A DNA stretch of 32,434 nucleotides from Acholeplasmataceae bacterium. Lineage in GTDB: Bacteria; Bacillota; Negativicutes; Acidaminococcales; Acidaminococcaceae. The notes under the pieces are model-generated. The model made no database searches, had not been told where the DNA came from, and saw only the letters and a program-made list of their open reading frames with translations. The stretch spans positions 1-32,434 of the forward strand of contig JAAYVM010000185.1 of assembly GCA_012517145.1 (NCBI GenBank), in the 5' to 3' direction. The translations under genes and the position numbers were made by a program. This document shows positions 14,493 to 30,009 of the stretch, piece by piece; position 1 is the first letter of the stretch, and the number at the start of each line of letters is the position of its first letter.

Positions 14493-14547
14493 AGTTTTCC
14501 CCGCTTTTCGTATGTGCCGCCCGTGGCAGCATCATATCTACAAATAA

Positions 14548-15390
14548 TCAGGCTGACTTTAGTTTTCTTTGTGCAAAAATAAAGATTAAGTTGATAAACA
14601 AAACCACAAGTATCAGCAGCGCTCCGATACCATTGGCAATTGCAACACGGTCAGGAACAAGTCCGATACCCATTACATACCAAAGATGGACTGCCAAAGT
14701 TTCGCCGCCGGCGAAAACATCAAAATCCGCCATGTGCCTGGAAACCGTGGTTCCCGCTGTAAATATCAAAATAGCACTTTCGCCAATCGCTCTGCCGCTG
14801 GCCAGCATGATACCTGTAATTATACCACCCATTGCTTCCGGCAACACTACTTTACGTATGGTCTGCCACTTTGTAGCACCCAAAGCAATGCTGGCCTCCC
14901 TGTAAGTCTGAGGTACAGTCTGCAGCGCTTCTTCCGTTACCCTTACGAGAAGAGGCAGATTAAGCAGTGATAGGGAGAGCGCACCACCCAAAATACTGAA
15001 ACCCATACCCAGAAAGTCAACAAAAACAATCATGCCAAAAAGTCCTAACACTATCGAAGGAACTGTCGCCAAGCTTTCCGTGCTTAAGCGAATAAATCTG
15101 GTCAGAGCCGTATCTTTAGCATATTCTGACAGATAGATGGCCGCACCAATAGCAATGAAAACAGAGAAAGCCATAGATAGAAACAAAATGTAGATCGTAT
15201 TAAACAGCTGCGGCCCAACACCACCGCCAGCTTCCATATCACTCGGCATACCAAAAATAAATTTTGGGGTCAATACAGGCAAGCCTTTATAGAGCATGTA
15301 GCCAAGGAAAGCGGCCAGTATCGCGATTAAGAGAAATCCTATGAACCACAAACAAACTTTTGCTATTTTGTCCTGTGTTTTTGCATTCAT
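14548..15390 (-). CDS. pstA: Phosphate ABC transporter permease PstA
   Basis: 280 residues, six membrane helices, with the ABC-contact motif EASIALGATKWQTIRKVVLP and then GRAIGESA. It pairs with PstC to form the phosphate channel. Its ATG overlaps the pstC stop by four bases (ATGA), so the two are translationally coupled. The final RKLKSA is a short basic tail. Length and motifs are standard. Confidence 0.96.
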   Translation of the reverse strand: MNAKTQDKIAKVCLWFIGFLLIAILAAFLGYMLYKGLPVLTPKFIFGMPSDMEAGGGVGPQLFNTIYILFLSMAFSVFIAIGAAIYLSEYAKDTALTRFIRLSTESLATVPSIVLGLFGMIVFVDFLGMGFSILGGALSLSLLNLPLLVRVTEEALQTVPQTYREASIALGATKWQTIRKVVLPEAMGGIITGIMLASGRAIGESAILIFTAGTTVSRHMADFDVFAGGETLAVHLWYVMGIGLVPDRVAIANGIGALLILVVLFINLIFIFAQRKLKSA

Positions 15391-16271
15391 GCTTCCACCG
15401 CCTTTTTCGCACTTATTTTGCGTACGACAAGAATCATAATAAGTGAAATTAAAAGCAATACCAAGGCCATCAGAAACAGCGCATTGCCCCAGGTCGAGCC
15501 GAAAGGAGTGTTGCCCATTTCCACGACGATTTCACTCGGCAGGGTGCTGGTCGGTGAAAACAATGAATCAGCGAGACGCGGCGTATTGCCGATAACCATC
15601 TGTACTGCCATCGTTTCACCAATGGCGCGTGCCATACCTAAGATAATTGCAGTCACAATTCCAGGTTTGGCGGCAGGCAGTACAATATGCCAGATTGTCT
15701 GCCAGTAAGTGGCTCCCAAAGCAACTGAGCCCTCTTCCAACATTTTCGGAACAGACAGCAAAGCATCTGTTGAAATACTGATTACCGTCGGCAGAATCAT
15801 GATGGACAGAATGAAAGAAGCGGTTAAAATACCAAAACCGACCGGCACACCGAAGTATTCCCGCACCGCCGGTACCACAACAGTCAAGCCAATGAAACCA
15901 TAAACAACCGATGGAATAGCCATATACAGGTTTACAGCAGGCTTCATAATTTCACATACCCATTTTGGTGCCAATTTTGCCATGAAAACTGCGCCCATTA
16001 CACCAATCGGCCCTCCGACCAAAATAGCCAGAAAAGTCACAAGTAAACTGCCGAAAATGAAGCTGAACGCTCCGTATTGTCCGTTATCAGGGTTCCACTT
16101 TGTAGAAAAGAAAAATTCGAACGGACTAACATCTGTGAATGTCTGCAGGCCTTGCTGCCCCATGAAGACAATAAGGGCAATGATTACTACCGTCAGAAAA
16201 GCCGCGCTGCAGAGCAAAATGTTTTTAGCCAGTTTTTCATTGCGAAGCCTGTCAAGGTCATATTTTTTCAT
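15387..16271 (-). CDS. pstC: Phosphate ABC transporter permease PstC
   Basis: 294 residues with six membrane helices and a cytoplasmic N-terminus (MKKYDLDRLRNEKLAKN). Contact motif EGSVALGATYWQTIWHIVLP and ARAIGETMAVQMVIGNTP are typical of PstC. The ATG at 16271 follows GGGAGATAATT. It lies 104 bp after pstS, beyond a terminator-like hairpin, and overlaps pstA. Confidence 0.96.
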   Translation of the reverse strand: MKKYDLDRLRNEKLAKNILLCSAAFLTVVIIALIVFMGQQGLQTFTDVSPFEFFFSTKWNPDNGQYGAFSFIFGSLLVTFLAILVGGPIGVMGAVFMAKLAPKWVCEIMKPAVNLYMAIPSVVYGFIGLTVVVPAVREYFGVPVGFGILTASFILSIMILPTVISISTDALLSVPKMLEEGSVALGATYWQTIWHIVLPAAKPGIVTAIILGMARAIGETMAVQMVIGNTPRLADSLFSPTSTLPSEIVVEMGNTPFGSTWGNALFLMALVLLLISLIMILVVRKISAKKAVEA

Positions 16272-16288
16272 AATTATCTCCCATTAGT

Positions 16289-16322
16289 AAAAAACCAGGT
16301 CCATTAATGTACCTGGTTTTTT
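16289..16322 (-). terminator. Intercistronic terminator-like hairpin between pstS and pstC
   Basis: Stem AAAAAACCAGGT / ACCTGGTTTTTT around a 10-nt loop, with a uridine run on the minus strand. Partial termination here would give more binding protein than permease, as is usual for pst operons. The effect is inferred. Confidence 0.7.
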
Positions 16323-16375
16323 AATTAAACTCACTTACAAGTATTGGCGTAGCTAATATTTAAAAGAAGTTAGTA

Positions 16376-17236
16376 TTATTTTTTCATTTTGGTGATAGGT
16401 ACAAATCCTTGTTTCTCAGCATTGACATTTTGGAACTCAGCGCTGGTTACATAGTCAATAAAGGCTTTTACAGCACCTTTAGGTTCGCCCTTGGTAAACA
16501 TGCGGCCGAATGTATATACTGGATATTTACCGTCAACAACTGCTGCGATAGAATATTTCACGCCGTCATAAGATAAAGCTTTTACGCTGCTATCAACATA
16601 AGCTGCATCAACATAGCCGATAGCGCCGGGAGTCGTTGCGATAGCAGAACGAACAGCACCGTTGGAATCCTGAATGACTGCGGCATCAGTAAATTCGGCA
16701 CCTTTCAAAACTACATCCGCAATCGTTGCGCGGGAACCGGAAGATTTTGCTCTGTGCACCAAGGTAATTTGTTGATCCTTGCCGCCAACTTCTTTCCAGT
16801 TTTTGATTTTACCAGTAAGAATGTCCACATATTGTTGAGCTGACAAATTATCAACAGGTACATCCTTGTTAGCAATAAACACGAATGGTATCCCAACCAG
16901 CTTGGTCTCTACCAGGCCTTTATCTTTGAAATCGGCTCCTAAGGCAACATCTGAGTTACCAATATCTACTGAACCTGCTGCTACTTGCTTTTGACCGGTG
17001 AAAGAACCACCACCTGATAGGTTGATCGTAACCTTATCATGTTTCTTATAGAATTCTTCCTGACCAACTTTTAATAGTGGCAGCAAAGCAGTGGAACCTG
17101 ATGCCGATATCTTACCCTCAACTTTTGTTGATGCGGCTTTATCATCCTTCTTATCGCTGCCGCAGCCAGCCACCAAACTCATACCAACGGCCAGTGTTAA
17201 CGCCATTACTGTAGCTTTCTTAAAAAAACTTTTCAC
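16376..17236 (-). CDS. pstS: Phosphate-binding lipoprotein PstS
   Basis: 286 residues. Lipoprotein signal (MKSFFKKATVMALTLAVG, lipobox LVAGC), then a phosphate-binding fold with ISASGSTALLPL near the mature start, GGGSFTGQKQVAAGSVDIGNSD, and KSSGSRATI, the loops that hold phosphate in this family. It captures phosphate outside the inner membrane for PstCA. The start is GTG at 17236, preceded by AAGGGGGAAG; no ATG fits. Its own Pho box and -10 lie directly upstream, so it begins a phosphate-controlled unit with pstC, pstA and phoR. Confidence 0.95.
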   Translation of the reverse strand: MKSFFKKATVMALTLAVGMSLVAGCGSDKKDDKAASTKVEGKISASGSTALLPLLKVGQEEFYKKHDKVTINLSGGGSFTGQKQVAAGSVDIGNSDVALGADFKDKGLVETKLVGIPFVFIANKDVPVDNLSAQQYVDILTGKIKNWKEVGGKDQQITLVHRAKSSGSRATIADVVLKGAEFTDAAVIQDSNGAVRSAIATTPGAIGYVDAAYVDSSVKALSYDGVKYSIAAVVDGKYPVYTFGRMFTKGEPKGAVKAFIDYVTSAEFQNVNAEKQGFVPITKMKK

Positions 17237-17279
17237 TTTTACTTCCCCCTTGATAATTTTGTATTCCGATCATAATTTC

Positions 17280-17333
17280 ATTATAAGGGCAGATTGTTAT
17301 GACAGTATTATGTCAATGTTAAGGTTTTGTTAA
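17280..17333 (-). promoter_or_regulatory. Pho box and promoter of pstS
   Basis: On the minus strand four hexamers recur at exactly 11 bp: TTAACA (17333), TTAACA (17322), ATAATA (17311) and ATAACA (17300). A 9-bp gap then precedes TATAAT (17285-17280). This matches the direct-repeat layout of Bacillus PhoP operators. It begins two bases after the phoU stop codon. Confidence 0.85.
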
Positions 17334-17335
17334 GA

Positions 17336-17995
17336 TTACTTTTTAGGAACCCGCTGACCGGTAACAAGATAGATTACCCACTCCGCCAGATTAGTCGCAT
17401 GATCACCTATGCGTTCGATACGTTGAACAACTTTGTTCAGATCAAGGCCCTGCTCAATATTTGCCTGATCTTTCATCATGTAAAATAAAATATCACGTTT
17501 GCATGTTTCGCAGATTTCGTCAACCTTGTCATCCGCGGCACAAACCTCCGCAGCGGCATTAACATCCAATTCAACATAAGATTTTAATACCTTCTTTACC
17601 ATTTCCTGCACCATTTGAGCGGCTAACGGTATATCTACCAAAGGTTTGATCAACGGATCCTGTCCTATACGATTGGCAATTTTGGCTATTTTTTTTGCAT
17701 GATCACCAATACGTTCCAGATCAGTTGTCATCTTCATCGCAGTGGAAAGAATTCGCAAGTCCTTAGCGATTGGCTGTTGCAAGGCGATAAGTTCAACCGT
17801 CTTGTCTTCAATAATAACCTGCATTTCATCTATTTTGTCATCGCCGGCAATTACCGAATCAGCCAAATCCTTATTTTTTGTTTTAAGCGCCTCCACAGCA
17901 TCAGCTAATGCTTGCGTCACTAGTTGACCCATTGCCATAAGGTCATTTTGTATTAACGCCAGTTCTTTTGTAAAAGTGCCACGAGCGTCCACCAT
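17336..17995 (-). CDS. phoU: Phosphate signalling protein PhoU
   Basis: 219 residues, all helical, with the two tandem PhoU half-domains. Each half carries the metal-cluster motif: LERIGDHAKKIAK in the first and IERIGDHATNLAEW in the second. It is a cytoplasmic protein that links the Pst transporter to PhoR and restrains it when phosphate is plentiful. ATG at 17995 lies one base after the pstB stop, with SD GGGGAGG inside the end of pstB, so translation is coupled to pstB. An in-frame start 31 codons upstream would lie inside pstB and is not favoured. Confidence 0.95.
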   Translation of the reverse strand: MVDARGTFTKELALIQNDLMAMGQLVTQALADAVEALKTKNKDLADSVIAGDDKIDEMQVIIEDKTVELIALQQPIAKDLRILSTAMKMTTDLERIGDHAKKIAKIANRIGQDPLIKPLVDIPLAAQMVQEMVKKVLKSYVELDVNAAAEVCAADDKVDEICETCKRDILFYMMKDQANIEQGLDLNKVVQRIERIGDHATNLAEWVIYLVTGQRVPKK

Positions 17996-17996
17996 A

Positions 17997-18758
17997 TCAT
18001 CCAAACCTCCCCGTAATATAATCCTCCGTCTTTTGATTACTTGGTCGTGTGAACATCGTGCTAGTAGGCTGACACTCCACCATCTCACCCATCAGGAAGA
18101 AAGCCGTGTAATCAGAAGACCTTGCGGCTTGCTGCATATTGTGTGTAACCATTACAATACTGTATTTTTCTTTAAGTTCAACAAGGAGTTCTTCTATTTT
18201 CATTGTTGAAATAGGATCAAGAGCTGAACAAGGCTCGTCCATAAGCAATATCTCAGGCTCAACCGCTAAAAGTCTCGCAATACAAAGTCTTTGCTGCTGA
18301 CCGCCGGATAACCCCATAGCAGAAGAATTAAGCCTATCCTTCACCTCATCCCACAAAGCCGCACCACGAAGGCTCTTTTCCACCAATTCATCCAGTACAG
18401 ACTTTTGTTTCTGCCCGTGAATGCGGGGGCCATAAGCTATATTATCGTAAATACTCATAGGAAAGGGATTCGGTCTTTGGAACACCATGCCTACCCGTTT
18501 ACGCAGATTAACAACATCCGTACCCGGCTCATAAATATCCTGGCCTTCTATGATGACTTCGCCGGTAATACGCACACCTTCAATCAAGTCGTTCATGCGG
18601 TTCAAAGTCCGCAAAAAAGTAGATTTGCCGCAGCCAGACGGTCCGATAAAAGCAACTACCTTATTCTTGTACATATCCAGTGAAATATTTTTAAGTGCTT
18701 GATGTTCGCCATAATACAGACACAGATTTTTAACTGTTATAACTTTCTCCAGTTCCAT
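17997..18758 (-). CDS. pstB: Phosphate ABC transporter ATP-binding protein PstB
   Basis: 253 residues. Walker [11 protein letters not shown]-loop region [13 protein letters not shown] (the PstB hallmark NPFPMS), signature [15 protein letters not shown], Walker [14 protein letters not shown] and switch VTHNMQQA. It powers phosphate import through PstCA. ATG at 18758 follows AAAGGAAGGG; an upstream in-frame start at 18809 would extend into the Pho box and lacks an SD. Unusually, it precedes pstS and is separated from the permease genes by phoU and pstS. It has its own Pho box. Confidence 0.96.
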
Positions 18759-18785
18759 ATTTCCCTTCCTTTCTGTTGCCTGTAA

Positions 18786-18839
18786 ATCGTAACAAACTAT
18801 TGTTATCATTATATTACTGGAATGTTAATTTTTTGTTAA
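18786..18839 (-). promoter_or_regulatory. Pho box and promoter of pstB-phoU
   Basis: Minus strand: TTAACA (18839), TTAACA (18828), GTAATA (18817), ATAACA (18806), again at exactly 11 bp. A 9-bp gap then precedes a weak -10, TACGAT (18791-18786). The geometry is the same as in the pstS Pho box. It begins four bases after the phoB stop codon. Confidence 0.82.
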
Positions 18840-18843
18840 ATTT

Positions 18844-19542
18844 TTATTTTGCCAGCCTATATCCCACACCACGCACCGTTTCGATAACTTCGGCCATTTC
18901 AGGAACTCTTTCCAGCTTAGCGCGCAGATGCCTTACATGTACATCAACCGTGCGGGTATCGCCAAAATATTCGTAGCCCCAGATTTTTTCCAAAAGCTGT
19001 TCCCTGCTGAAGACCTTACCTGCATTCTCTGCCAATAATTTTAACATCTCGTATTCTTTTGGAGTTAATTCTAACTTTTCGCCATCCAGCCATGCTTCAT
19101 ATTGGCTGAAATTCATACGCAGCCTGCCGATAACCAGCTCTTCGCTGGCTCCAACAGCTACACTTGAGCGCCGTAGGACTGCTTTGATTCTGGCAAGCAA
19201 TTCTCTCTGGCTGAAGGGCTTAGTCATATAATCATCGGCTCCTAATTCAAGCCCGATAACACGGTCTATTTCATCGCTTTTAGCCGTCAGCATTATAATG
19301 GGAAGGGCGGCAGTCCGCGGATTCCTTTTCAGATTGCGGCACACTTCCAATCCATCAATACCAGGAAGCATCAAGTCAAGAATTATGATATCAGGGGTCA
19401 AATTCATTGCCATTTCTATGGCTTTGTTCCCATTCTCTGCCTCAAACGCCTCATAGCCGGCCTTTTCCAGATTAAATTTCACCAACATTCTGATGTTGTC
19501 TTCATCGTCCACGATTAAAACTTTTTGCTTTATTTTAACCAC
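18844..19542 (-). CDS. phoB: Phosphate-regulon response regulator PhoB/PhoP type
   Basis: About 230 residues, OmpR-family regulator. The receiver domain has the acidic pair in VLIVDDEDN, phospho-acceptor Asp in IIILDLMLPG, Thr in IIMLTAK and Lys in YMTKPFS. The C-terminal winged helix includes LTPKEYEMLKLLAEN and DVHVRHLRAKL. It should bind the two Pho boxes when phosphorylated by PhoR. The start is uncertain: GTG at 19542 is the nearest standard codon and has only a weak SD, while an ATA at 19533 lies five bases after AGGGGTGG and would give the common family N-terminus (x-KQKVLIVDDE). An open frame back to 19626 lacks an SD. No Pho box was seen upstream of this gene. Confidence 0.93.
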   Translation of the reverse strand: MVKIKQKVLIVDDEDNIRMLVKFNLEKAGYEAFEAENGNKAIEMAMNLTPDIIILDLMLPGIDGLEVCRNLKRNPRTAALPIIMLTAKSDEIDRVIGLELGADDYMTKPFSQRELLARIKAVLRRSSVAVGASEELVIGRLRMNFSQYEAWLDGEKLELTPKEYEMLKLLAENAGKVFSREQLLEKIWGYEYFGDTRTVDVHVRHLRAKLERVPEMAEVIETVRGVGYRLAK

Positions 19543-19748
19543 CCCTGATTTCTCTGCTTTTAAGCTTGTTATTTCGCCATATTTTCTCTCTTTCCTGCTT
19601 TTAGCAATGGGAACTTTTATTACCACTAATTTTCAACTATTCATTGCATTTTGCAGCTTTTTCCTTGCATACTGTCATTCGAACAGGAGTTAGTACTCAG
19701 ATTTGGCGGAAGACAGTCGCTTTTCTGCTAAAAATAAACTGAAAATTC

Positions 19749-19777: not shown

Positions 19778-19809
19778 TAGTTTACAGAATAATTATGAAA
19801 GGAGAAGCT

Positions 19810-20298
19810 ATGATGAAACTAATCTATGGAATTCTGTTAGGCCTTCTTTTGATATTCAATACGGCTTTTGCAGCAGATGCAGGTTATGGTGCGAAGGGTG
19901 CTATAAACACACCTCAGCCAACTGTGCAAGAGATGCTGACCTTTGCAATCCAAGATGAATATCTGGCTCATAGTCAATATGGAACGGTACTTGATACCTT
20001 TGGCAAAGTTCGTCCATTTTCTAACATCATTTTATCCGAAGAACGCCATATCAGCTATTTACAGCCTCTATTTACCGACCGTGGCTGGGATATTCCTGCA
20101 GACAAAGGCAAAGACATGGTCATTAAACCGAAAACCTTTGCCGAAGCTTTGAAATTAGGCACGCAGATAGAAACTGATAACATTGCCATGTATGAGTATT
20201 TTCTCCAGCAGCCTGACCTTCCAAGCGACGCAAAAACTGTCTTTGAGTTATTGCTTGCGGCATCCAACAAACATCTACAGGCTTTCAGCAAATGGTAA
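19810..20298 (+). CDS. Secreted DUF2202 ferritin-like protein
   Basis: 162 residues. A signal peptide (MMKLIYGILLGLLLIFNTAFA, cut near AFA-AD; named by its ends) is followed by a four-helix ferritin-like domain. Metal-ligand motifs lie on successive helices: QDEYLAHSQY, SEERHISYL, QIETDNIAMYEY and ASNKHLQAF, the DUF2202 pattern related to rubrerythrin-like diiron proteins. Family members are thought to bind iron or act in oxidative stress; no activity is known for this one. It should act outside the cytoplasm. ATG at 19810 follows AAAGGAGA; an ATG five codons upstream would contain the SD. It is divergent from phoB and monocistronic. Confidence 0.82.
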   Translation: MMKLIYGILLGLLLIFNTAFAADAGYGAKGAINTPQPTVQEMLTFAIQDEYLAHSQYGTVLDTFGKVRPFSNIILSEERHISYLQPLFTDRGWDIPADKGKDMVIKPKTFAEALKLGTQIETDNIAMYEYFLQQPDLPSDAKTVFELLLAASNKHLQAFSKW

Positions 20299-20370: not shown

Positions 20371-23300
20371 TTATTCTATGTCATCATTTTTTTCAGTAAT
20401 CCAAGGCGCCAGCTCAACATAAAGTATCGGCACCGCGATAAGGGTAAGCAGTGTAGCCGTTACTGCCCCGAACATCATAGCTAAGGCCAATCCCTGGAAA
20501 ATCGGATCGAACAGCATAACTATTGAGCCAACCATCACAGCCGCTGCCGTAAGAACAATCGGGCGCATCCTTACAGTTCCTGCCGTCAAAACCGCTTCAT
20601 GAAGTTCCATGCCACTATTACGTGAATGTTGAATAAAATCAACCAATAATAAACTATTGCGCACTATAATCCCTGCCAAGGCGATAAAGCCAATCATGGA
20701 AGTCGCCGTAAAGAAAACTCCCGACAACGCATGTGCCGGTAATATACCGACTAAAGTCAACGGAATCGGAGCCATAATAACTACTGGAATAATGAAGCTG
20801 CGGAACCAGGCTACCACCAGTACATAAATCAGAACCAATACGGCAGCAAATGCCATGCCCAAATCACGGAAGACTTCTGCTGTTATATGTACCTCACCAT
20901 CCCATTTGACTGAAGGCACTCTTTTTTCCGGTTGATTAGCATAGTATTGTGGTATTTCTGACCCATTATCACCCATCTTTGCTACTGTGTCACGCATTGC
21001 CAAAACTGAATAGCCCGGACTTTCATAACGTCCTCCTACATCTCCCGTAACATAAACAACAGGTTGCAGATTTTTGTGATAAATAGTTTTATCTTCAATA
21101 CCAGGTTTCACGGTCACCAGTTCTGCCAAATTCACATGATTACCAGACGACGTTGGCAAAGACAGTTGTCGCAATAGCTGTGGATTATTACGTAAATCCT
21201 GAGGCATACGCAAACGAATCGGCACAGGCTCCTTTTCCTTAGCTATATGCAATAAACCGGCATCAGTTCCAGTAAGCCCCATTCTCAAAGTCTCATTGAC
21301 AGCTGCCACACTTACGCCTGCCAAAGCTGCTTTATCACGGGAAATCACATACTGATCCTTAGGCTGATCTGCTTCCCGCATCAGATCAGGTTCCAATACT
21401 CCCGGTGTCTTTTTGAAAAGCTCCAGAACCTTGTCCGCCAGCTGTTCACGGGTTTTAGCTTCCGGTGCATATACCTCTGCCATCAGTGTGCTCATTACCG
21501 GTGGTCCAGGCGGAATTTCTGCTATCTTTAGTTTTGCCCCATGTGCCAGCGCAATTTGTTCCAAATCATTTCTGACACGCTTCGCTATATCATGACTTTG
21601 GTCTTTTCTTTGTCCCTTTTCTACAAGATTAACCTGAATATCCCCTTGATAACCATAACTGCGCAAATAATAATGACGAATCAAGCCATTAAAGTTAAAG
21701 GGTGCGCTGGTACCAACATACGCCTGACAATCGGTCACCTCAGGCACTTTAACCAGATAAGCCATAAGTTCATCCAATACAATTTGGGTACGTTCCAGAG
21801 AAGTGCCTTCCGGCATATCGACGATAACTTGAAATTCACTTTTATTATCGAAAGGCATCATTTTAACCAGCACAGCTTTAATAGGAACTAATGCCATACT
21901 CAGAAGCAGCAGAGCGCTAATTCCTGCCAGCATCCATTTTCGCCAACGAGCATTGCTCATCAGAGCCTCCATAAAACGCCGATAACGTTCTGCCAATTTG
22001 CCAGAAGACTCCGCAGCACTTTCTTCGTGTTTTACGTTTTTTAACAGCTTATAGGAAAGCCAGGGTGTCACAATAAAAGCTATCAGCAAGGAGAAAAACA
22101 TAGCCGCTGATGCGCCCACCGGAATCGGCCGCATGTAAGGCCCCATCAGACCTCGCACAAATGCCATCGGGAGCAGCGCTGTAATTACTGTAATTGTGGC
22201 CAGAATAGTAGGATTGCCTACTTCATCAACTGCCATAGCGGCAATTTCAGGCGAAACACCATTCATTTTAAAATGACGATGAATATTCTCAACTACGACA
22301 ATGGCATCATCAACAAGGATACCAATGGAAAAGATTAAGGCAAACAATGTAACCCTGTTCAAAGTATAACCATATAAATAATTCACAAGCAAAGTCAATG
22401 CCAGTGTTACCGGCACAGCTACCAAAACAACAACTGCCTCACGCCAGCCCAAAAAGAACAGGATCAATGCAGCTACGGACAACGTGGCAATAAGGATATG
22501 CTGCAGTAACTCATCCGATTTTTCCTTAGCTGTCGCACCATAATTACGGGTTACTGTCACAGAAATATCACTAGGAATACGGTCGCCTTTCAGCTCCGCA
22601 ATTCTTCTCAAGGCATCATCAACGACTTCCGTCGCGTTAGTGCCTTTCTTTTTGGCTAATGCGATCGTTACCGCTTCATGCCTGCCGGTTCCCGCGCCTT
22701 TGATGCCTTTTTCGGAAGCAGCAGCGCCAGCCTGGAACAAACTTACATGATTTGCCTCCGCCGGTCCATCAACTATCCTTGCAACATCACGCAGATAAAC
22801 AGGCCTACCTTGACTTACACCAACAATTACCTGCTCAACATCTGCGGCTGAGTTAAAAAAGCCCTGCCCTTCAACCTTGATTTCTTTATTATCAGTAATA
22901 TAACTGCCTGCCGCAAGCGTCATATTTGCCTGCTGCAAAGTTTGCTGCACCGCCAAGGGAGATAAACCATAGGTGGTCAGCCGTCCCGGATCAAGCTCAA
23001 CCCTTAGTTCATGTTCCTGTCCGCCAATAATATTGATACCAGCCACATCCGGGCCTTTTTTTAATTCATCTGCCACTTCCATGGCAACTCTGCGTAGTTC
23101 ATAACCGCCATACAAATCGTTCGGACTCCACAAGCTAAGTGTCAATACCGGCACATCATCAATTGAACGCGCCTTGATAAGCGGCTGCGAAACACCCTGC
23201 GGAATGCGGTCATAATTAGCCATCAATTTGGTATAGAGTTTGACCAGGCTGGCTTCCAGATCCTGTCCAACATAGAACCTTACAATGGTCAGATTCTGGC

Positions 23301-23574
23301 CTGGCTGCGACATTGAATAGACATACTCGACACCGTCAATTTCCCATAATAGCTTCTCCATGGGATTCGTAACCAATTCTTCGACTTCAGAAGACGAAGC
23401 GCCCGGAAAAGAAACCATTACATCGACCATTGGTACGACAATTTGCGGTTCCTCTTCCCTCGGTGTCACAGAAATGGCGAAAACGCCCAAAAGCAAGGCG
23501 AAAGCAACGATAAGCGGTGTGAGTTTTGAAAACAAGAATGCTCTGGCCAGTGATCCAGACGCACCCCGCTTCAT
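20371..23574 (-). CDS. RND-family efflux pump, inner-membrane subunit
   Basis: About 1067 residues, full length for AcrB/MdtB-type pumps. TM1 (about 19-38) is followed by the large periplasmic loop (PREEEPQIVVPMVDVMVSFPGASSSEVEE, named by its parts), then helices TM2-6 with the proton-relay pair Asp-Asp in GILVDDAIVVVEN (about 422-423), a second periplasmic loop, and TM8-12, where GIIVRNSLLLVDF has Arg at the usual relay Lys position. Substrates cannot be told; the motif GVSPEIAAMAVDEVGNPTI places it among drug/solvent-type rather than CusA metal pumps. ATG at 23574 overlaps the adaptor stop by four bases. No outer-membrane TolC-type gene is adjacent. Confidence 0.93.
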   Translation of the reverse strand: MKRGASGSLARAFLFSKLTPLIVAFALLLGVFAISVTPREEEPQIVVPMVDVMVSFPGASSSEVEELVTNPMEKLLWEIDGVEYVYSMSQPGQNLTIVRFYVGQDLEASLVKLYTKLMANYDRIPQGVSQPLIKARSIDDVPVLTLSLWSPNDLYGGYELRRVAMEVADELKKGPDVAGINIIGGQEHELRVELDPGRLTTYGLSPLAVQQTLQQANMTLAAGSYITDNKEIKVEGQGFFNSAADVEQVIVGVSQGRPVYLRDVARIVDGPAEANHVSLFQAGAAASEKGIKGAGTGRHEAVTIALAKKKGTNATEVVDDALRRIAELKGDRIPSDISVTVTRNYGATAKEKSDELLQHILIATLSVAALILFFLGWREAVVVLVAVPVTLALTLLVNYLYGYTLNRVTLFALIFSIGILVDDAIVVVENIHRHFKMNGVSPEIAAMAVDEVGNPTILATITVITALLPMAFVRGLMGPYMRPIPVGASAAMFFSLLIAFIVTPWLSYKLLKNVKHEESAAESSGKLAERYRRFMEALMSNARWRKWMLAGISALLLLSMALVPIKAVLVKMMPFDNKSEFQVIVDMPEGTSLERTQIVLDELMAYLVKVPEVTDCQAYVGTSAPFNFNGLIRHYYLRSYGYQGDIQVNLVEKGQRKDQSHDIAKRVRNDLEQIALAHGAKLKIAEIPPGPPVMSTLMAEVYAPEAKTREQLADKVLELFKKTPGVLEPDLMREADQPKDQYVISRDKAALAGVSVAAVNETLRMGLTGTDAGLLHIAKEKEPVPIRLRMPQDLRNNPQLLRQLSLPTSSGNHVNLAELVTVKPGIEDKTIYHKNLQPVVYVTGDVGGRYESPGYSVLAMRDTVAKMGDNGSEIPQYYANQPEKRVPSVKWDGEVHITAEVFRDLGMAFAAVLVLIYVLVVAWFRSFIIPVVIMAPIPLTLVGILPAHALSGVFFTATSMIGFIALAGIIVRNSLLLVDFIQHSRNSGMELHEAVLTAGTVRMRPIVLTAAAVMVGSIVMLFDPIFQGLALAMMFGAVTATLLTLIAVPILYVELAPWITEKNDDIE

Positions 23575-24638
23575 GATTTTTCTCCCTTCCACAGTCCGCC
23601 GTCAACAGCATTTTCAACACCAGCAACAACAATACGCTCTTCTCCCGTCAGGCCGGAGATAACTTCTACATCATTGCCGGATGTGCGCCCCAATCGAATT
23701 AACCGGAAGGATATCACATTGTCCTGGCCCACAACATATACTCCTGTCAGCTGCCCGCGTTCCTGAACAGCAGAACGTGGCACTGCCAGTTTTTTTGCTA
23801 TTTCAAAAGGAAACTGTACCCTCACATATTCCCCGCTGCGCCAATCTTTGCCCGGAAGAAGGATTTTTATTAAAAAGGAACGTGCATCAGGAGTCACGCT
23901 CGGAGAAACATATAATATTTTGCCTTTCTGCAATGATTCGTCATTTCTCTGAATATCAACAGCCATACCGGAAGCTACTTTTCCTGCCTGCGCCACATCA
24001 ACCCAAGCTTCAACTTCATAATGTGACGGGTCTTCAATGCTTATTAATGGCTGATTGGCCGCAACAAGTGCTCCGACTTCGGCTAATTGTCGTGTTACCT
24101 GGCCGTCATAAGGAGCACGAATATTCAGGTATTCCTCTACGGCTGCCGATTCAGCAAAACCGGCACGTGCACGCGCTGCTTCTGCTGCCGCGCTTTGCTG
24201 AGCTGCATATGCGCGATCAAGTTCTTGTTTTGATATTGCATCACTTTGGTACAAAGCCAACATACGATTATAAGTAGCATCAGCCAATTGACTTGCTGCC
24301 GCAGCAGCCATTACTTGCTGCTCAGCTCCGCTGGTGCGCTGCACAGCGTCTGGTGCATCCAACACGACCAAGAGCTGTCCTTGAGAAACCACAGCGCCTT
24401 CCCTTACTAATACCTCTTTTACTCTCCCCGTAGTCTGCGGTGCTATATTGGTAACTTGAAATGCTTTTACAGTACCGGCAATTTCATAGCCACTCAAAGA
24501 CTTCTTTTCGACACTCCCAAGCTTTAAGCCGCTAACGACTGTTCGTTTCGGCTCCTCCTGGTGTATTTTTGTCGTAGAACAGCCTGTCAATAACAGTGAA
24601 AAGGTTATCAATAACGATGGAAAAATTTTTCCCAGCAC
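23571..24638 (-). CDS. Periplasmic adaptor (membrane fusion) lipoprotein of the RND pump
   Basis: 355 residues. Lipoprotein signal with lipobox LLTGC, then a lipoyl half-motif (APQTTGRVKEVLVREGAVVSQGQLL, about 67-91, named by ends), an alpha-helical hairpin rich in Ala (about 100-165), the second lipoyl half (LNIRAPYDGQVTR), a beta-barrel and a membrane-proximal domain (VPRSAVQERGQLTGVYVV). This is the HlyD/AcrA adaptor layout, which links the RND pump to an outer-membrane channel. The start is GTG at 24638 after GAGGGGGGCG. It is coupled to the pump gene. The 143 bp upstream hold no clear terminator, so read-through from the sulfur genes is possible. Confidence 0.92.
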   Translation of the reverse strand: MLGKIFPSLLITFSLLLTGCSTTKIHQEEPKRTVVSGLKLGSVEKKSLSGYEIAGTVKAFQVTNIAPQTTGRVKEVLVREGAVVSQGQLLVVLDAPDAVQRTSGAEQQVMAAAAASQLADATYNRMLALYQSDAISKQELDRAYAAQQSAAAEAARARAGFAESAAVEEYLNIRAPYDGQVTRQLAEVGALVAANQPLISIEDPSHYEVEAWVDVAQAGKVASGMAVDIQRNDESLQKGKILYVSPSVTPDARSFLIKILLPGKDWRSGEYVRVQFPFEIAKKLAVPRSAVQERGQLTGVYVVGQDNVISFRLIRLGRTSGNDVEVISGLTGEERIVVAGVENAVDGGLWKGEKS

Positions 24639-24781: not shown

Positions 24782-25357
24782 TTACTGCCTGTTTTTAATA
24801 CTACAACTATCTGAGAAGCCTGCCGGCGGCACACCTAATGACTTCAGGAGCCGTGCCCAATAGTTTACTTGTGCGGCAGTGGTTGCTAATATAACAATTT
24901 CACGCTCTGTAAAATCAGCTTTTAGTTTTTTTATAAATTCTTCTGGTATAACAACCGGAGTTTGAGAAATTAAATTAGCATACTCTAATGCCAATTTTTC
25001 TTTGGCAGAAAAGGAAGCAACAATTGCAAAGCCGCCTTCATCCATTAAACCTTTTATTTCGGCTTCAGACAGGCCATCATTTTTATATTCAAAGGAGTTC
25101 ATATCGATGCAAAATGGACAGGCAACGCTAAGAGATACTTGTATCCTGACCAATTTAAGAATACGTTTATTCAAATCTCCCTTGCCATGTGCCACTAATG
25201 CTTCCAATGCAGCCGAGCCAATAGCAGCTTTCGGATACCAAGCCAAAAGCCTGGGAGCAAGCAAATCTTTCTTTACAATCACTCTGGATATGAGAAGTCC
25301 AATCTTAAGATAGAAAGGAATTTTTTCCGGCGGCTTAATAAAAGCAGTGTCTTCCAT
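24782..25357 (-). CDS. Carboxymuconolactone decarboxylase / AhpD-like protein
   Basis: 191 residues, helical, cytoplasmic. The family core is present: RIQVSLSVACPFCIDMNSFE with a CxxC pair (CPFC), preceded by an Arg-rich helix and followed by LSEAEIKGLMD and a second helix pair (FTEREIVILATTAAQVNYWARL). AhpD proteins use E-x(n)-CxxC-xxx-H for thiol redox or peroxide reduction. Here the position of the His reads Asn-Ser (CPFCIDMNS), so classical AhpD proton relay may be absent. ATG follows GAGGAGTT. It is 36 bp after the membrane polyferredoxin gene, in the same operon. A thiol-redox role in sulfur handling is inferred from context. Confidence 0.83.
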   Translation of the reverse strand: MEDTAFIKPPEKIPFYLKIGLLISRVIVKKDLLAPRLLAWYPKAAIGSAALEALVAHGKGDLNKRILKLVRIQVSLSVACPFCIDMNSFEYKNDGLSEAEIKGLMDEGGFAIVASFSAKEKLALEYANLISQTPVVIPEEFIKKLKADFTEREIVILATTAAQVNYWARLLKSLGVPPAGFSDSCSIKNRQ

Positions 25358-25393
25358 AATAACTCCTCAATTAACAAAACTAAAAAACAATTT

Positions 25394-26479
25394 TTAATTT
25401 TGCTCTTTTTTTCGTGCATACTTTAATGCACTTACCGGGCATGCCTTCAGGCAGGCACCACAGGAATAACAATCGGCCGGATGTTTTTCCCCCGCTAACA
25501 AGCCAATGGTATGCTGCGATGGGCAAATCCTCTTGCAAGTACCGCAGGCAATACATTTTTTCTCATCCCAGTGAACCCGATATAAAGCGAAACGTTCAAA
25601 AAACCATCCCGTTAAGCCGAAAGGACACGCAAAGGTGCACCATGGCCGATAGGTTACAAGAGATAACAAAAGCAGGAGGGCAATAAAAATGCCCGCTAAA
25701 AAAGTCACCTTTGCTGGCGCGTATATCATAAAGGGATCGATTACACCGATTAAATCAAGAGATAAAAGAAAAGCTGCTAAGGTAAAAACAATAAAGACCA
25801 TTATTCTTATTCTTTGGCTCCACTTGAAAGGAACACGCAACTTTTGTTTGATTGGCGACATTTGGCCGATCAAATCCTGAAGCGTGCCGAATTGGCATCC
25901 CCAGCCGCAAATCATCTTATTGCCAACTATAACCATAGCTGTAAAGACAGCAAAGGCAACCAAACGTGGCGGGAAGAAAACACGCTCAATACCATAAAGT
26001 GCGATAGTGTCCTTTACTGTTCCCATCGGCGACGGATCGCTGCCCAGAAAAACGCCAAAGACCAACACTGCCAATAACAGCAGCCATTTGCGTCTTACCG
26101 GCGTGACCAGATTTCGTGTCAGAAGCACAATGCCGCCTATTACCAACATCCACCAGAGACCAAATTTCAGTACTATTAACTGCCAGTTTTTACTTGCCCC
26201 TTCGTTCTTCAACGTGATAGCCTTCCGCAAGGCCAGATCAGCCTGCTCTTCCGAAACATTCAATGAGCTAAGTTTTGCTGCCCTGTTTGCCTGGTTATCC
26301 GGAAGTTCAAGGTTGCGTAGAAGAACCTCGCCTGAAACACCATTTTGACTAGCTGTCTCTTCAATCGTCCAATTTAAATCGATGCGAGGTGATACTTCTT
26401 TCTTTGGAGCAGCAGACGCTACTGCGGAAATTCCAATCACTGTTGCCACAATTATTAACAAAGCAACGATTCTCTTCAT
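25394..26479 (-). CDS. Membrane polyferredoxin of the NapH/CcoG-like type with N-terminal helical domain
   Basis: 361 residues. A signal-like N-terminus (MKRIVALLIIVATVIGISAV) precedes a short extracytoplasmic helical domain (TIEETASQNGVSGEVLLRN...LNVSEEQADLALRKA, about 37-88). Five or so membrane helices follow, with two conserved Cys motifs in loops (ICGWGCQFGT and CTFACPFGL), and the C-terminus has two 4Fe-4S motifs (CIACGTCKRICP and CYSCGACLKACP). NapH/YccM/CcoG-type proteins move electrons across or along the membrane. The electron donor and acceptor are unknown. ATG at 26479 follows AAGGGATGG. It sits between the YeeE/YedE genes and the AhpD-like gene, which suggests electrons for reduction of an imported sulfur (or selenium) species. 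Confidence 0.87.
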   Translation of the reverse strand: MKRIVALLIIVATVIGISAVASAAPKKEVSPRIDLNWTIEETASQNGVSGEVLLRNLELPDNQANRAAKLSSLNVSEEQADLALRKAITLKNEGASKNWQLIVLKFGLWWMLVIGGIVLLTRNLVTPVRRKWLLLLAVLVFGVFLGSDPSPMGTVKDTIALYGIERVFFPPRLVAFAVFTAMVIVGNKMICGWGCQFGTLQDLIGQMSPIKQKLRVPFKWSQRIRIMVFIVFTLAAFLLSLDLIGVIDPFMIYAPAKVTFLAGIFIALLLLLSLVTYRPWCTFACPFGLTGWFFERFALYRVHWDEKKCIACGTCKRICPSQHTIGLLAGEKHPADCYSCGACLKACPVSALKYARKKEQN

Positions 26480-26556
26480 ATTCAGCCATCCCTTCCTGAA
26501 TCACAAGGCAGCTCTTATTTTCTCCCGCTACTAACATATAGTCAGAACTTTTGTAT

Positions 26557-27084
26557 TTAAAGACCCTTTTTCTCGAACCATCTGAATAGCATAACAGTTA
26601 ATACTATGAAAGGTACTATTACCAACCAATGATTAACTCCTAAAACCTGCGGAATAGTGATTTTGCCATAGTTGCCCCAGGTCAGCACTGTCTTTTGCAA
26701 ATACGGATATGCCTCAGCATATATACCTGCGCCTACCAGCATACCAGCAATGCCCCAGATAGCATCTGTACGGCCTTCGCCTAAAGCCCCGAGGGATGTA
26801 CCCGGACAATACCCAAGAAGCCCCCAGCCAAGTCCAAAAATTAATCCACCAAGTACCACGCCTCCTAAAATCATAGGTTTCAAGGAGAGCTTAGCTATTC
26901 CCATATCATACAGGAAATAAACACCAACCATTGCTACCGCTATATGTGAAAGCATGAATTTTACAATCGTCATATCTTTAAAAAGCAAGGCACCAATTTG
27001 TTTATCATACCTTAAGACACGACCCTTTTGCAGAAAGAAACCAAACAGTATGCCTGTAATCAAACCATATAGAAGAGTCATCAT
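26557..27084 (-). CDS. YeeE/YedE-family sulfur transporter half, second subunit
   Basis: 175 residues, about five membrane helices, with the family motif GYCPGTSLGALGEGR (about 91-105) that holds the conserved thiosulfate-path cysteine in the related single-chain protein TsuA. It starts with MMTLLYGLITGILFGFFLQKG, named by its ends. Its ATG overlaps the stop of the first half by four bases. Together the two short proteins cover what longer YeeE/YedE proteins hold in one chain. The substrate may be thiosulfate or another sulfur compound; selenium compounds are also possible. Confidence 0.88.
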   Translation of the reverse strand: MMTLLYGLITGILFGFFLQKGRVLRYDKQIGALLFKDMTIVKFMLSHIAVAMVGVYFLYDMGIAKLSLKPMILGGVVLGGLIFGLGWGLLGYCPGTSLGALGEGRTDAIWGIAGMLVGAGIYAEAYPYLQKTVLTWGNYGKITIPQVLGVNHWLVIVPFIVLTVMLFRWFEKKGL

Positions 27085-27599
27085 TTTTTGTCACCGCCTT
27101 TATAAAGCAAATTAGCTGAGATTATGCCGCCAATAAAGAAGCAAATAAGCGCCACGTAACCGCTTACTGCGAGCTGAAGGCCACCGCTGAGACCATGTCC
27201 GCTGGGGCAGCCATCGGCAAGACGCACACCAAACATTGCGATGATGCCACCGACAAAAGCAACCATAGCTCTGGGGGCTACCGCAGAACCAAAGCGGCTC
27301 TCCCACAGATCAGGCACTGCCTGCAATTTGAAACTGTTAGAAGTAACAGCAGCCACAAATGACCCAATAGCAATACCTATAACAACCATCCACTGCCAAT
27401 CGATGGCCGGAGTTTCCTTAATAAAATATGGCATTTTGGCTACCCGTTCAGGCGAAAAAATTTTTTCCAGCATGCCTGCCGTTTTAACAAAACTTGTCGA
27501 TGCGCCCAGATATTTACCTACAAACCAGACAGAACCGATAGATACTAACCCGCTTAAACCGCCCGCTACATATGGGCTCCAGCCTCCGTCCTTATTCAT
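27081..27599 (-). CDS. YeeE/YedE-family sulfur transporter half, first subunit
   Basis: 172 residues, with about five membrane helices and the family motif DGCPSGHGLSGG (about 131-142), the other conserved-Cys site of YeeE/YedE proteins. ATG at 27599 follows AAGGAGGTTTTTTGT; an in-frame start six codons upstream contains the SD and is rejected. It is the first gene of the leftward operon, with a strong promoter and a 25-bp inverted repeat upstream. Similar split pairs (PmpA/PmpB) accompany the ArsR-type regulator BigR in other bacteria, which supports a role in sulfur traffic. Confidence 0.88.
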   Translation of the reverse strand: MNKDGGWSPYVAGGLSGLVSIGSVWFVGKYLGASTSFVKTAGMLEKIFSPERVAKMPYFIKETPAIDWQWMVVIGIAIGSFVAAVTSNSFKLQAVPDLWESRFGSAVAPRAMVAFVGGIIAMFGVRLADGCPSGHGLSGGLQLAVSGYVALICFFIGGIISANLLYKGGDKK

Positions 27600-27637
27600 A
27601 CAAAAAACCTCCTTCATCTTTAGAAAATTTTATAACC

Positions 27638-27662
27638 ATACAGATATTCCTTATATCTGTAT
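27638..27662. promoter_or_regulatory. Inverted repeat downstream of the yeeE promoter, candidate ArsR operator
   Basis: Perfect 10-bp arms ATACAGATAT and ATATCTGTAT around the 5-bp centre TCCTT. It abuts the -10 and covers the predicted transcription start, so a bound repressor would block initiation. The gap 27600-27927 otherwise holds two divergent promoters and about 170 bp of AT-rich sequence in which I see nothing. Confidence 0.7.
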
Positions 27663-27689
27663 ATTACGATTTAACGTTATTTGTGTCAA
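27661..27689 (-). promoter_or_regulatory. Promoter of the YeeE/YedE operon
   Basis: Minus strand TTGACA (27689-27684), 17-bp spacer, TAATAT (27666-27661). The start is predicted near 27654, inside the inverted repeat. Confidence 0.8.
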
Positions 27690-27856
27690 TAGTAAAACAC
27701 TCTATCGGTAAAATATTTTTGAAGTTTGCAATATCCCATCTTTAATTAAAAATACACCTTGCTTAATTTCAATATAAACCCCATAATATACAAAAGCAAG
27801 AATTTTCAGTTTTTTAAGACAGGTACGTCTAATTTTTATTGGCTCTATAATCTTAC

Positions 27857-27885
27857 TTGACATTGCTCCTAACCCGAATTATTAT
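27857..27885 (+). promoter_or_regulatory. Promoter of the arsR-cdr unit
   Basis: TTGACA, 17-bp spacer, TATTAT (27880-27885). The predicted start is near 27892, within the element shared with the divergent promoter. Confidence 0.75.
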
Positions 27886-27905
27886 TAAATCGTAATATAT
27901 AGATA
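27885..27905. promoter_or_regulatory. Shared 21-bp element, candidate ArsR operator of arsR-cdr
   Basis: TTAAATCGTAATATA, then T, then AGATA. The minus strand at 27674-27654 has the same 21 bases except C for that T. The two lie in inverted orientation, each over its own promoter or start site. Common control of both transcripts by one regulator, most simply the adjacent ArsR protein, is inferred. Confidence 0.65.
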
Positions 27906-27927
27906 AGCTAATGAAAGGATGTCTCAT

Positions 27928-28221
27928 ATGGACATGGATACCAGCAAATACAATGAAATTGCGGAAATTCTGAAGGCCTTGGCGCATCCCGTTCGCCTTT
28001 GCATTGTGCGAGGTTTGATTGCAAAAGGCGGCTGCAATGTTTGCCATATGCAGGAATGCTTTGGTATGCCGCAATCCACTACCTCTCAGCACTTGCAAAA
28101 ACTACGCTCTGCCGGCATAATTTCCGGACAACGCAAAGGCCTGGAAGTCACTTATCAAGTTTGCGATCAGCGCGTCATCAAATTAATCGAGATACTATTC
28201 TCTGAACAGGAAGAAGGCTAA
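27928..28221 (+). CDS. Cys-rich ArsR-family transcriptional repressor
   Basis: 97 residues, winged helix-turn-helix. The core reads ILKALAHPVRLCIVRGLIA, then the recognition region MPQSTTSQHLQKLRSAGII and the wing GQRKGLEVTYQVCD. Five cysteines are present: C25, C36, C39, C44 and C79. C36-x2-C39-x4-C44 just before the recognition helix could bind a metal or form persulfide or disulfide links. ArsR relatives BigR and SqrR sense sulfane sulfur with two cysteines. The neighbours (CoA-disulfide reductase-rhodanese, YeeE/YedE) favour such sensing over arsenic. ATG at 27928 is eight bases after AAAGGA; an ATG at 27919 overlaps the SD. It is three bases from the next gene. Confidence 0.88.
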   Translation: MDMDTSKYNEIAEILKALAHPVRLCIVRGLIAKGGCNVCHMQECFGMPQSTTSQHLQKLRSAGIISGQRKGLEVTYQVCDQRVIKLIEILFSEQEEG

Positions 28222-28224
28222 AAG

Positions 28225-29922
28225 ATGAAAAAGATTGTTATAGTCGGCGGTGTTGCCGGCGGCGCATCAGCAGCAGCAAGATTACGCAGGTTAGACGAGC
28301 GGGCAGAAATTGTTTTGCTGGAACGGGATGAGCATATATCCTTTGCCAACTGTGGCCTGCCTTACTATATTGGAGAAACAATTTTGAACCGCAATAAGCT
28401 CCTGGTGCAAACTCCTGAGGCCATGCGAACCCGCTTTGCCATCGATGTCCGAGTTTATAGCGAAGTTACCGCTGTTCATCCAGACAAAAAAACTATCACT
28501 GTCAACAGCAAAGACCGCGGTCAATATGAAGAAAGCTATGATTATCTGATTCTCTCGCCGGGTGCCAAGCCTATCCGTCCTAATATTCCCGGCATATACA
28601 GTAACCGTATCTTAACATTACGTAATATTCCTGACACCGACCGTATCAAAGCCCTCGTTGATCAAGATGCTACTCGTAGAGCTGTCGTTATTGGCGGTGG
28701 TTTCATCGGCTTAGAAATGGCTGAAAACTTGAAAGAACGCGGTTTGGAGGTATCAGTAGTTGAAGCGGCGCCGCATGTTCTGGCACCATTTGATAGTGAT
28801 ATGTCTGTTTTGGTTGAACGCGAACTAAAAGAAAATGGCATAGATTTATTTCTCAGTGACGGTGTTGCCAGTTTCCAAGAACAACCGGATACCATTACTG
28901 TTACTCTGCAGAGCGGCAAAATACTGGCAACGGATATTGTCATTCTGGCAATTGGCGTCGCACCTGAGACAGCCTTCCTTGCTGGCAGCGGAATTACCCT
29001 TGGCCGACGCGGCCATATCATTGTAAATGATCAAATGAAAACCTCTCAGCCAGACATTTACGCCGTCGGTGATGCAATCGAAGTCGTTGACTTCATCAGC
29101 GGTCAGCCTACGGCTATTCCTTTGGCTGGTCCGGCGAATAAACAGGGCAGAATTGCCGCTGATAACATAGCCGGCATATCCAGCCGCTTTCAAGGTAGCC
29201 AAGGAACCTCAATTCTAAAAGTTTTTTCACTTACTGCTGCTTCAACAGGCAATAATGAGCGCACGCTGAAACAACTTGGCATCAACTACCACGTCGCAAT
29301 CGTTCATCCTAATTCCCATGCAACCTACTATCCTGGCTCCCAGCCTCTGACAATCAAACTGCTGTTTGACGATTCAGGCCGCATTTTGGGTGCTCAATCG
29401 ATTGGTCTCGAAGGTGTCGACAAACGCATAGATGTCATCGCCACCGTAATACGCCTCAAAGGCACAGTCAGCGATCTTACAGAATTAGAACTAGCCTACG
29501 CACCGCCATATTCTTCAGCTAAAGATCCAGTTAACATGGTTGGATTCGTAGCAGAAAATATCCTTTCAGGTCTATGTGATGCCTTCACCTATGAACAACT
29601 TGCTTCCTTTAGCCCAGAAGAAACGATTCTTCTGGATGTACGTACAGCAACGGAATTCGCTAATGGTTACCTGCCTGGAGCACTCAACATTCCTGTCGAC
29701 GAATTGCGGCAGCGCATGTCGGAGCTTGATAAAGAAAAGTTGATTTTAGTCTACTGCCAGGTTGGTCTGCGCGGCTATATCGCATCTCGAATTCTTAGTC
29801 AAAATGGTTTTCGCGTTAAAAATATGACCGGCGGTTATAAATCAGCAGCACCTGTTTTTGCCAAATCTCCAGTCGCCCCATGTGGCATGGCTCTTGACCC
29901 TGAAACCCAAGTAATGCGTTAA
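28225..29922 (+). CDS. cdr: CoA-disulfide reductase with C-terminal rhodanese domain
   Basis: 565 residues. The N-terminal FAD-binding motif is IVGGVAGGASAAARLRRL (6-23), with active-site Cys43 in FANCGLPYYIG exactly at the place used by CoA-disulfide reductases. The NAD(P)H-binding motif VVIGGGFIGLEMAENL (about 152-167) and the second FAD motif DIYAVGDA come next, and the C-terminal rhodanese domain (about 465-545) has active loop CQVGLRGY with Cys511. CoADR-rhodanese fusions reduce CoA-persulfide or polysulfide with NAD(P)H, releasing sulfide. The protein is soluble. AGGAAGAAGG lies before the ATG. It is co-transcribed with arsR and ends at a strong terminator. It is the reductive arm of the sulfur module. 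Confidence 0.93.
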   Translation: MKKIVIVGGVAGGASAAARLRRLDERAEIVLLERDEHISFANCGLPYYIGETILNRNKLLVQTPEAMRTRFAIDVRVYSEVTAVHPDKKTITVNSKDRGQYEESYDYLILSPGAKPIRPNIPGIYSNRILTLRNIPDTDRIKALVDQDATRRAVVIGGGFIGLEMAENLKERGLEVSVVEAAPHVLAPFDSDMSVLVERELKENGIDLFLSDGVASFQEQPDTITVTLQSGKILATDIVILAIGVAPETAFLAGSGITLGRRGHIIVNDQMKTSQPDIYAVGDAIEVVDFISGQPTAIPLAGPANKQGRIAADNIAGISSRFQGSQGTSILKVFSLTAASTGNNERTLKQLGINYHVAIVHPNSHATYYPGSQPLTIKLLFDDSGRILGAQSIGLEGVDKRIDVIATVIRLKGTVSDLTELELAYAPPYSSAKDPVNMVGFVAENILSGLCDAFTYEQLASFSPEETILLDVRTATEFANGYLPGALNIPVDELRQRMSELDKEKLILVYCQVGLRGYIASRILSQNGFRVKNMTGGYKSAAPVFAKSPVAPCGMALDPETQVMR

Positions 29923-29952: not shown

Positions 29953-29995
29953 AAAAAAGGCATTCCTTCGCTCTCAACCGCGGGAATGCCTTTTT
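29953..29995. terminator. Bidirectional terminator
   Basis: 13-bp stem (AAAAAGGCATTCC / GGAATGCCTTTTT) around a 16-nt loop, between the convergent cdr gene and the SHOCT gene. It has Ts on both strands. Confidence 0.88.
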
Positions 29996-30009
29996 CATTA
30001 AAATACTAC

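Follow-up and report, generated by a model that had tools for sequence, protein, structure and literature searches.

Introduction

The closest described relatives of the locus reported here are the YedE1E2 pair of Cupriavidus and the PmpAB pair of Serratia, in which adjacent genes encode two membrane proteins of half size, which match the N- and C-terminal halves of TsuA and carry one conserved cysteine each (PmpB and PmpA corresponding to the two YeeE halves, PMC11582611). The YedE1E2 pair moves zero-valent sulfur inward only, and the cysteine of each half is essential (PMC10812762). In Acinetobacter and Serratia, the ArsR-family regulator BigR governs a yeeE-yedE-pdo2 operon (PMC7315123), which combines a split pair with a persulfide-consuming enzyme. 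Pairs of the YedE1E2/PmpAB kind mostly feed a persulfide dioxygenase, and it is mainly beside oxidative enzymes that split YeeE pairs are known. On the reductive side, T. maritima has a cytoplasmic NAD(P)H enzyme that coenzyme A (CoA) stimulates and that reduces S0, polysulfide and thiosulfate, and yeeE of this organism is induced 42.6-fold on thiosulfate (PMC9431562). The present work concerns positions 24782-29922 of a 32,434-nucleotide (nt) stretch of Negativicutes DNA (assembly GCA_012517145.1, contig JAAYVM010000185.1, positions 1-32,434, forward strand; hereafter the window), where genes for an ArsR-family regulator and a CoA-disulfide reductase-rhodanese (CDR-Rhd, or CDR for the enzyme type) diverge from a split YeeE/YedE pair, a membrane polyferredoxin (polyFd) and a CMD/AhpD-like protein (CMD).

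Judging from sequence, this locus is probably an ArsR-controlled, sulfane-sulfur-responsive import-and-reduction module. The window pair differs from the oxidative pairs in that its genome is of the anaerobe type and its partners are an NAD(P)H persulfide reductase and a membrane Fe-S protein. Together with its Negativicutes relatives, the locus suggests a reductive, anaerobic counterpart, which would sense, import and reduce sulfane sulfur. Most of the parts are already known, and it is their combination with the unstudied polyFd family that appears to be new; a search of the literature (largely open-access, with few subscription papers) found no paper on this gene combination. Additionally, the locus associates persulfide reductases with a widespread family of membrane Fe-S proteins that is still uncharacterised, and so offers a testable function for it.

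Results and Discussion

Gene layout and the shared 21-nt element

The layout proposed in a first-pass annotation of this DNA, with arsR-cdr divergent from two overlapping YeeE/YedE halves, a membrane ferredoxin gene and a CxxC AhpD-like gene, is borne out by the open reading frame listing, in which all six genes are intact and agree with that annotation in their coordinates. With families assigned by Pfam and NCBIfam, the plus-strand transcript starts with the gene of a 100-residue ArsR/SmtB-family regulator (27919-28221; HTH_5, NF033788), followed after 3 nt by that of the 565-residue CDR-Rhd (28225-29922; Pyr_redox_2, dimerisation and Rhodanese domains). On the minus strand, the C-terminal YeeE/YedE half (PmpA/YedE-like, 27081-27617; PF04143 positions 175-310) overlaps the N-terminal half (PmpB/YedE-like, 26557-27084; PF04143 positions 14-150) by 4 nt, polyFd follows after 77 nt (25394-26479; Fer4/Fer4_5), and CMD, the last gene, after a further 36 nt (24782-25357; PF02627).

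Both divergent transcripts probably form one regulon, and the strongest support for this is a 21-nt element that occurs twice, in opposite orientation, in the 300-bp intergenic region, with 20/21 positions identical between the copies. Copy 1, TTAAATCGTAATATACAGATA (27654-27674, minus strand), overlaps the -10 predicted for the YeeE/polyFd promoter, while copy 2, TTAAATCGTAATATATAGATA (27885-27905, plus strand), lies immediately 3' of the -10 predicted for the arsR-cdr promoter, reaching both this -10 and the start region; promoter predictions across the whole region do not exceed those in shuffles. When the two 150-nt intergenic halves were dinucleotide-shuffled (60 trials), the identity reached at most 16/21, and in the 2.47-Mb genome only one further match with up to 3 mismatches was found (contig C38, 3 mismatches), lying inside coding genes. 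Because the element is shared by both divergent promoters, the arrangement is more than chance adjacency. A related sequence, ATCGTAATATATAAATATA, precedes arsR-cdr in a distant Negativicute (locus L018), and copy 1 is itself overlapped by a perfect 10-5-10 inverted repeat, ATACAGATAT-TCCTT-ATATCTGTAT (27638-27662). A loose 13-nt palindrome was also considered as the regulatory motif and set aside in favour of the 21-nt element, since its 352 matches per strand are uninformative.

The ArsR regulator

Position and family point to ArsR as the binder of the 21-nt element. Bound to both divergent promoters it would repress both, and modification of its cysteines by reactive sulfur would relieve the repression. 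The protein belongs to the ArsR/SmtB metalloregulator superfamily (NF033788, 85.6 bits, cut-off 55, with HTH_5 also matched) and has PagR, BigR and YgaV as its closest solved structures. The first-pass annotation had placed it among BigR-type proteins, an assignment that we reject: in the alignment, the position of BigR C42 is taken by Arg31 and no cysteine lies beyond position 82, so that both positions of the C42/C108 pair of BigR/SqrR proteins lack a cysteine, and the BigR NCBIfam model gives 58 bits (cut-off 155). The regulator contains five cysteines, C28 and C47 being common to the Negativicutes relatives that adjoin CDR or YeeE genes and C39 being present in most of them. Although no BigR member, it may operate like BigR. 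The locus resembles the BigR-yeeE-yedE-pdo2 operon in setting an ArsR-family regulator over a split YeeE pair with an enzyme that consumes persulfide. It differs from that operon in lacking the C34/C100-type pair (BigR C42/C108), in having a reductase in place of the dioxygenase and in its divergent layout with two element copies.

The five cysteines of the regulator, and its score exceeding the cut-off for a metalloregulator subfamily model, would also suit a regulon for redox or metal(loid) stress, with ArsR sensing a metal or an oxidant, CDR, CMD and the Fe-S protein restoring thiol balance, and sulfur transport being incidental. We regard this as unlikely, given that the module holds no metal efflux or arsenate reductase gene, that in relatives the neighbouring genes encode sulfur proteins (TusA, DsrE2, rhodanese, molybdopterin/NrfD reductases) and that CsoR-family proteins replace the regulator while YeeE, CDR and NapH persist. 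These points are set against the CPFC motif of the AhpD-like protein encoded last in the operon, the DUF302/OsmC context found in Planctomycetes and the discussion of a Fusibacter CDR-Rhd as a possible arsenate reductase (PMC5525254).

The split YeeE/YedE pair

The two adjacent half-length genes fit the N- and C-halves of PF04143, and TsuA is the closest solved structure for both products, the N-half aligning with its residues 4-121 and the C-half with its C-terminal part. Each half has one conserved cysteine, at the positions of TsuA C91 and C293: C93 of the N-half (in GYCPGT) is kept in 48/48 N-halves, and C137 of the C-half (in DGCPSGHG) in 38/38 aligned homologues having that position. By the precedent of YedE1E2, the halves would pair in the membrane and import zero-valent sulfur or polysulfide by relaying it through one cysteine each, which may yield a low-molecular-weight or protein persulfide in the cytoplasm.

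Thiosulfate is a possible substrate, but zero-valent sulfur or polysulfide is preferred, since a split pair with two cysteines fits YedE1E2, whose tested substrate is zero-valent sulfur (PMC10812762), and not TsuA. The corresponding alternative is thiosulfate utilisation, in which the pair would import thiosulfate and CDR-Rhd would reduce its sulfane sulfur, so as to provide an electron sink for fermentation. It could draw on the structural match to TsuA, on the YeeE pairs that lie within Phs/Psr-like operons and on T. maritima, whose NAD(P)H polysulfide reductase is also a thiosulfate reductase and whose yeeE responds to thiosulfate (PMC9431562). However, TsuA models reach only 34-60 bits on the two halves (cut-offs 400-645) and no TsuB/TusA partner gene adjoins the pair in the window, and thiosulfate utilisation is in our judgement unlikely. 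TsuA membership was rejected on the same scores and on the presence of two chains instead of a single one. The idea of a selenium-analogue substrate, raised in the first-pass annotation, was likewise dropped together with an identity as selenium YedE transporter, as the models TIGR04112 and NF033796 give 29-33 bits (cut-offs 200-350).

The same genome carries a second split YeeE pair (contig C43, L011 1599-2641, minus strand), 84% and 76% identical to the first, which adjoins a DcuA/DcuB-type transporter; its neighbourhood is without sensor, CDR, Fe-S gene or 21-nt element (up to 3 mismatches). In three Planctomycetes loci (L069, L070, L071), the YeeE N-half continues into a large C-terminal extension, giving proteins of 665-733 residues in total, and two of these fusions show weak CDR/rhodanese similarity.

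The CoA-disulfide reductase-rhodanese

CDR-Rhd combines flavin/NAD(P)H reductase domains with a C-terminal rhodanese, as in CoADR-RHD proteins; PRK13512 scores 407 bits (above its cut-off of 394) and TIGR03385 529 bits (slightly below its cut-off of 579). The best solved matches are 3icr (E 3.7e-186), 3nta and the CoA-persulfide reductase 8a56, of which the first is the CoADR-RHD of B. anthracis and the second a Shewanella homologue. The window protein shares with these CoADR-RHD/Npsr/CoAPR enzymes the domain order and, in the alignment to 3icr, both expected cysteines, C43 of the flavoprotein part (SFANCG) and the catalytic C511 of the rhodanese (YCQVGLRG). Enzymes of the CDR type use NAD(P)H directly. 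By analogy with its characterised homologues, CDR-Rhd would accept sulfur on the rhodanese cysteine and/or as CoA persulfide (CoA-SSH), and would then reduce the persulfide or polysulfide with NAD(P)H to sulfide.

Its closest relatives are Sporomusa-type CDRs (69-74% identity), proteins of 820-830 residues (L120, L121, L122, L013) with the order CDR-Rhd-TusA-DsrE2 confirmed in L120 and L013; in contrast to them, the window protein ends after the rhodanese, without the extra TusA and DsrE2 domains. The CDRs of the 58 genomes of the same family are at most 44% identical to it, this close type being absent there.

Recurrent partners in other genomes

A neighbourhood survey found recurrent partners for the YeeE pair, ArsR/CsoR, CDR and polyFd/NapH-like proteins, and no recurrence for CMD. 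An ArsR or CsoR, CDR or NapH-like gene lies within about 3 kb of the YeeE pair in 10-11 of the 29 other Negativicutes loci. The arrangements include ArsR-YeeE-YeeE-NapH in two genomes of the same family (L094, L096), ArsR-YeeE-YeeE (L104, L109), CsoR-NapH-CDR-YeeE-YeeE (L099, L116), CsoR-CDR-YeeE-YeeE (L067) and CsoR-NapH-DUF2703-YeeE-YeeE (L097). The CsoR-type clusters bring together the same functional parts in operon order, and differ from the window in their CsoR-family regulator, their CDR subtype and a short (about 210 residues) NapH-like protein, related to polyFd yet distinct from it. A literature search of open-access papers found no published description of CsoR-NapH-CDR-YeeE clusters.

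Elsewhere, Pfam places a YeeE pair with molybdopterin, Fe-S and NrfD subunits and a rhodanese (L072), another pair shares an operon with a molybdopterin subunit (L085), and a third follows a protein with a beta-lactamase fold and a rhodanese part, which resembles persulfide dioxygenase (L082). Of 17 pairs in other Bacillota, about 7 adjoin a large oxidoreductase and an Fe-S subunit of the L072 type, judging by eye from the gene order and the beginnings of the sequences. Sulfane-sulfur chemistry is the common denominator of these neighbourhoods. The recurrent partners, together with the shared element, support the earlier proposal of a co-regulated divergent sulfur module with import by YeeE and reduction by CDR-Rhd.

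The membrane polyferredoxin

The polyFd protein consists of a signal/anchor, a helical domain of about 75 residues, about five transmembrane helices, two CxxxC motifs and two C-terminal 4Fe-4S motifs. Its twelve cysteines are invariant in 48 homologues, across which the GSDPSPMGTVKD motif is nearly invariant as well. The AlphaFold2 model (predicted local distance difference test 89, predicted template modelling score 0.84) has no match in the PDB (Foldseek, E<=0.001). In its transmembrane helices with CxxxC motifs and its two 4Fe-4S motifs polyFd resembles the NapH/NosR/CcoG-type membrane ferredoxins, from which it differs by the extra N-terminal helical domain and the near-invariant DPSPMGT motif; it falls below the NapH models (TIGR02163, 78 bits against 213; NF007013, 71 against 234). 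A scan of 84,980 species gave 50 polyFd loci, in Negativicutes, Planctomycetes, Deltaproteobacteria, Spirochaetes, Bacteroidetes, Elusimicrobia and other lineages. None of the 58 same-family genomes has the gene, and of 379 other genomes of the class only 4 do.

A CDR gene lies within 4.5 kb of polyFd in 7 of 48 tested loci, where the number of CDR genes in these genomes would predict 0.13 (Poisson P ~1e-10, a value that ignores kinship). The varied gene orders argue against one inherited block: ArsR-polyFd-CDR in L034, overlapping polyFd-CDR in L038, CsoR-NapH-polyFd-CDR/Rhd/TusA/DsrE2 in Sporomusa ovata (L013/L017), and polyFd divergent from ArsR-CDR, as in the window, in L018. In the proposed module, polyFd might connect a thiol/persulfide step in the membrane or outside the cytoplasm with the cytoplasm or the quinone pool through electron exchange; resetting of the transporter would be one such step. 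A bolder proposal, which we consider rather unlikely, gives the family the part of a membrane redox partner, linked to quinone or ferredoxin, in sulfane-sulfur import. The module would then tie the reduction of S0/polysulfide to the membrane with no molybdopterin reductase involved, and would amount to a minimal unit for sulfur respiration or an electron sink, governed by an ArsR whose cysteine arrangement is new.

Several observations weigh against the import-and-reduction module as a whole. In 41 of the 48 polyFd loci no CDR is nearby, and no YeeE pair was detected in any of the 48, the long polyFd having been found beside such a pair only in the window (the YeeE family is present in 38 of the 48 genomes). 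An electron role of polyFd, as proposed in the first-pass annotation, is not required, because CDR needs no ferredoxin. The inducer assignment is uncertain because ArsR lacks the known BigR/SqrR cysteine pair, and pmpAB of H. denitrificans showed no thiosulfate response (PMC11582611).

Two further observations concern polyFd. In Planctomycetes (L049 5655-8158, also L034 and L038), ArsR, DUF302, OsmC, polyFd and an MMPL-like transporter form a repeated grouping that seems to be a separate polyFd-containing sulfur or thiol cluster. A secreted protein encoded 4.5 kb from the module (19795-20298, plus strand), without Pfam match at 1e-5 and presumably a ferritin-like DUF2202 protein, has homologues (58% and 51% identity) that adjoin or nearly adjoin polyFd in L018 (4692-5183) and L051 (5495-6013), and may be a further polyFd partner.

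The CMD gene and the origin of the module

The AhpD-like protein, which the first-pass annotation had counted as part of the module, matches PF02627 (29.9 bits, cut-off 23) with CPFC at positions 80/83, and aligns with PDB 2gmy (E 8.5e-10). It was found neither in the 58 same-family genomes nor in the 379 other Negativicutes genomes (E<=1e-15), and its homologues in other Bacillota (62-68% identity) sit among unrelated genes. CMD was rejected as a module member on this lack of recurrence, and is probably a co-transcribed passenger.

Horizontal acquisition of CDR and polyFd appears likely, as CDR is nearer to the Sporomusa type than to that of the same family and polyFd occurs only outside the family. 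Chance adjacency of unrelated genes after such transfer would agree with the absence of polyFd, the close CDR type and CMD from the same-family genomes, and with the missing context of CMD. It is nonetheless extremely improbable, and already contradicted for every gene except CMD: the 21-nt element stands in both module promoters and in no other, pairwise gene linkage recurs across phyla, and L018 retains the divergent arrangement of arsR-cdr and polyFd.

Flanking features

Downstream of cdr, a putative terminator, GGCATTCC...GGGAATGCC-TTTTT, lies at 29955-29996 on the plus strand (predicted match 29967-29984); terminator matches across the region do not exceed those in shuffles. Directly 3' of the CMD gene and on its strand, an operon for an RND permease and a membrane-fusion protein (20371-24638, minus strand) shows no visible connection to the module. 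Further away, at 12750-19626 (minus strand), a Pst phosphate-uptake operon with genes for a PhoU-like protein and a PhoB/PhoR-like two-component system was recognised by eye.

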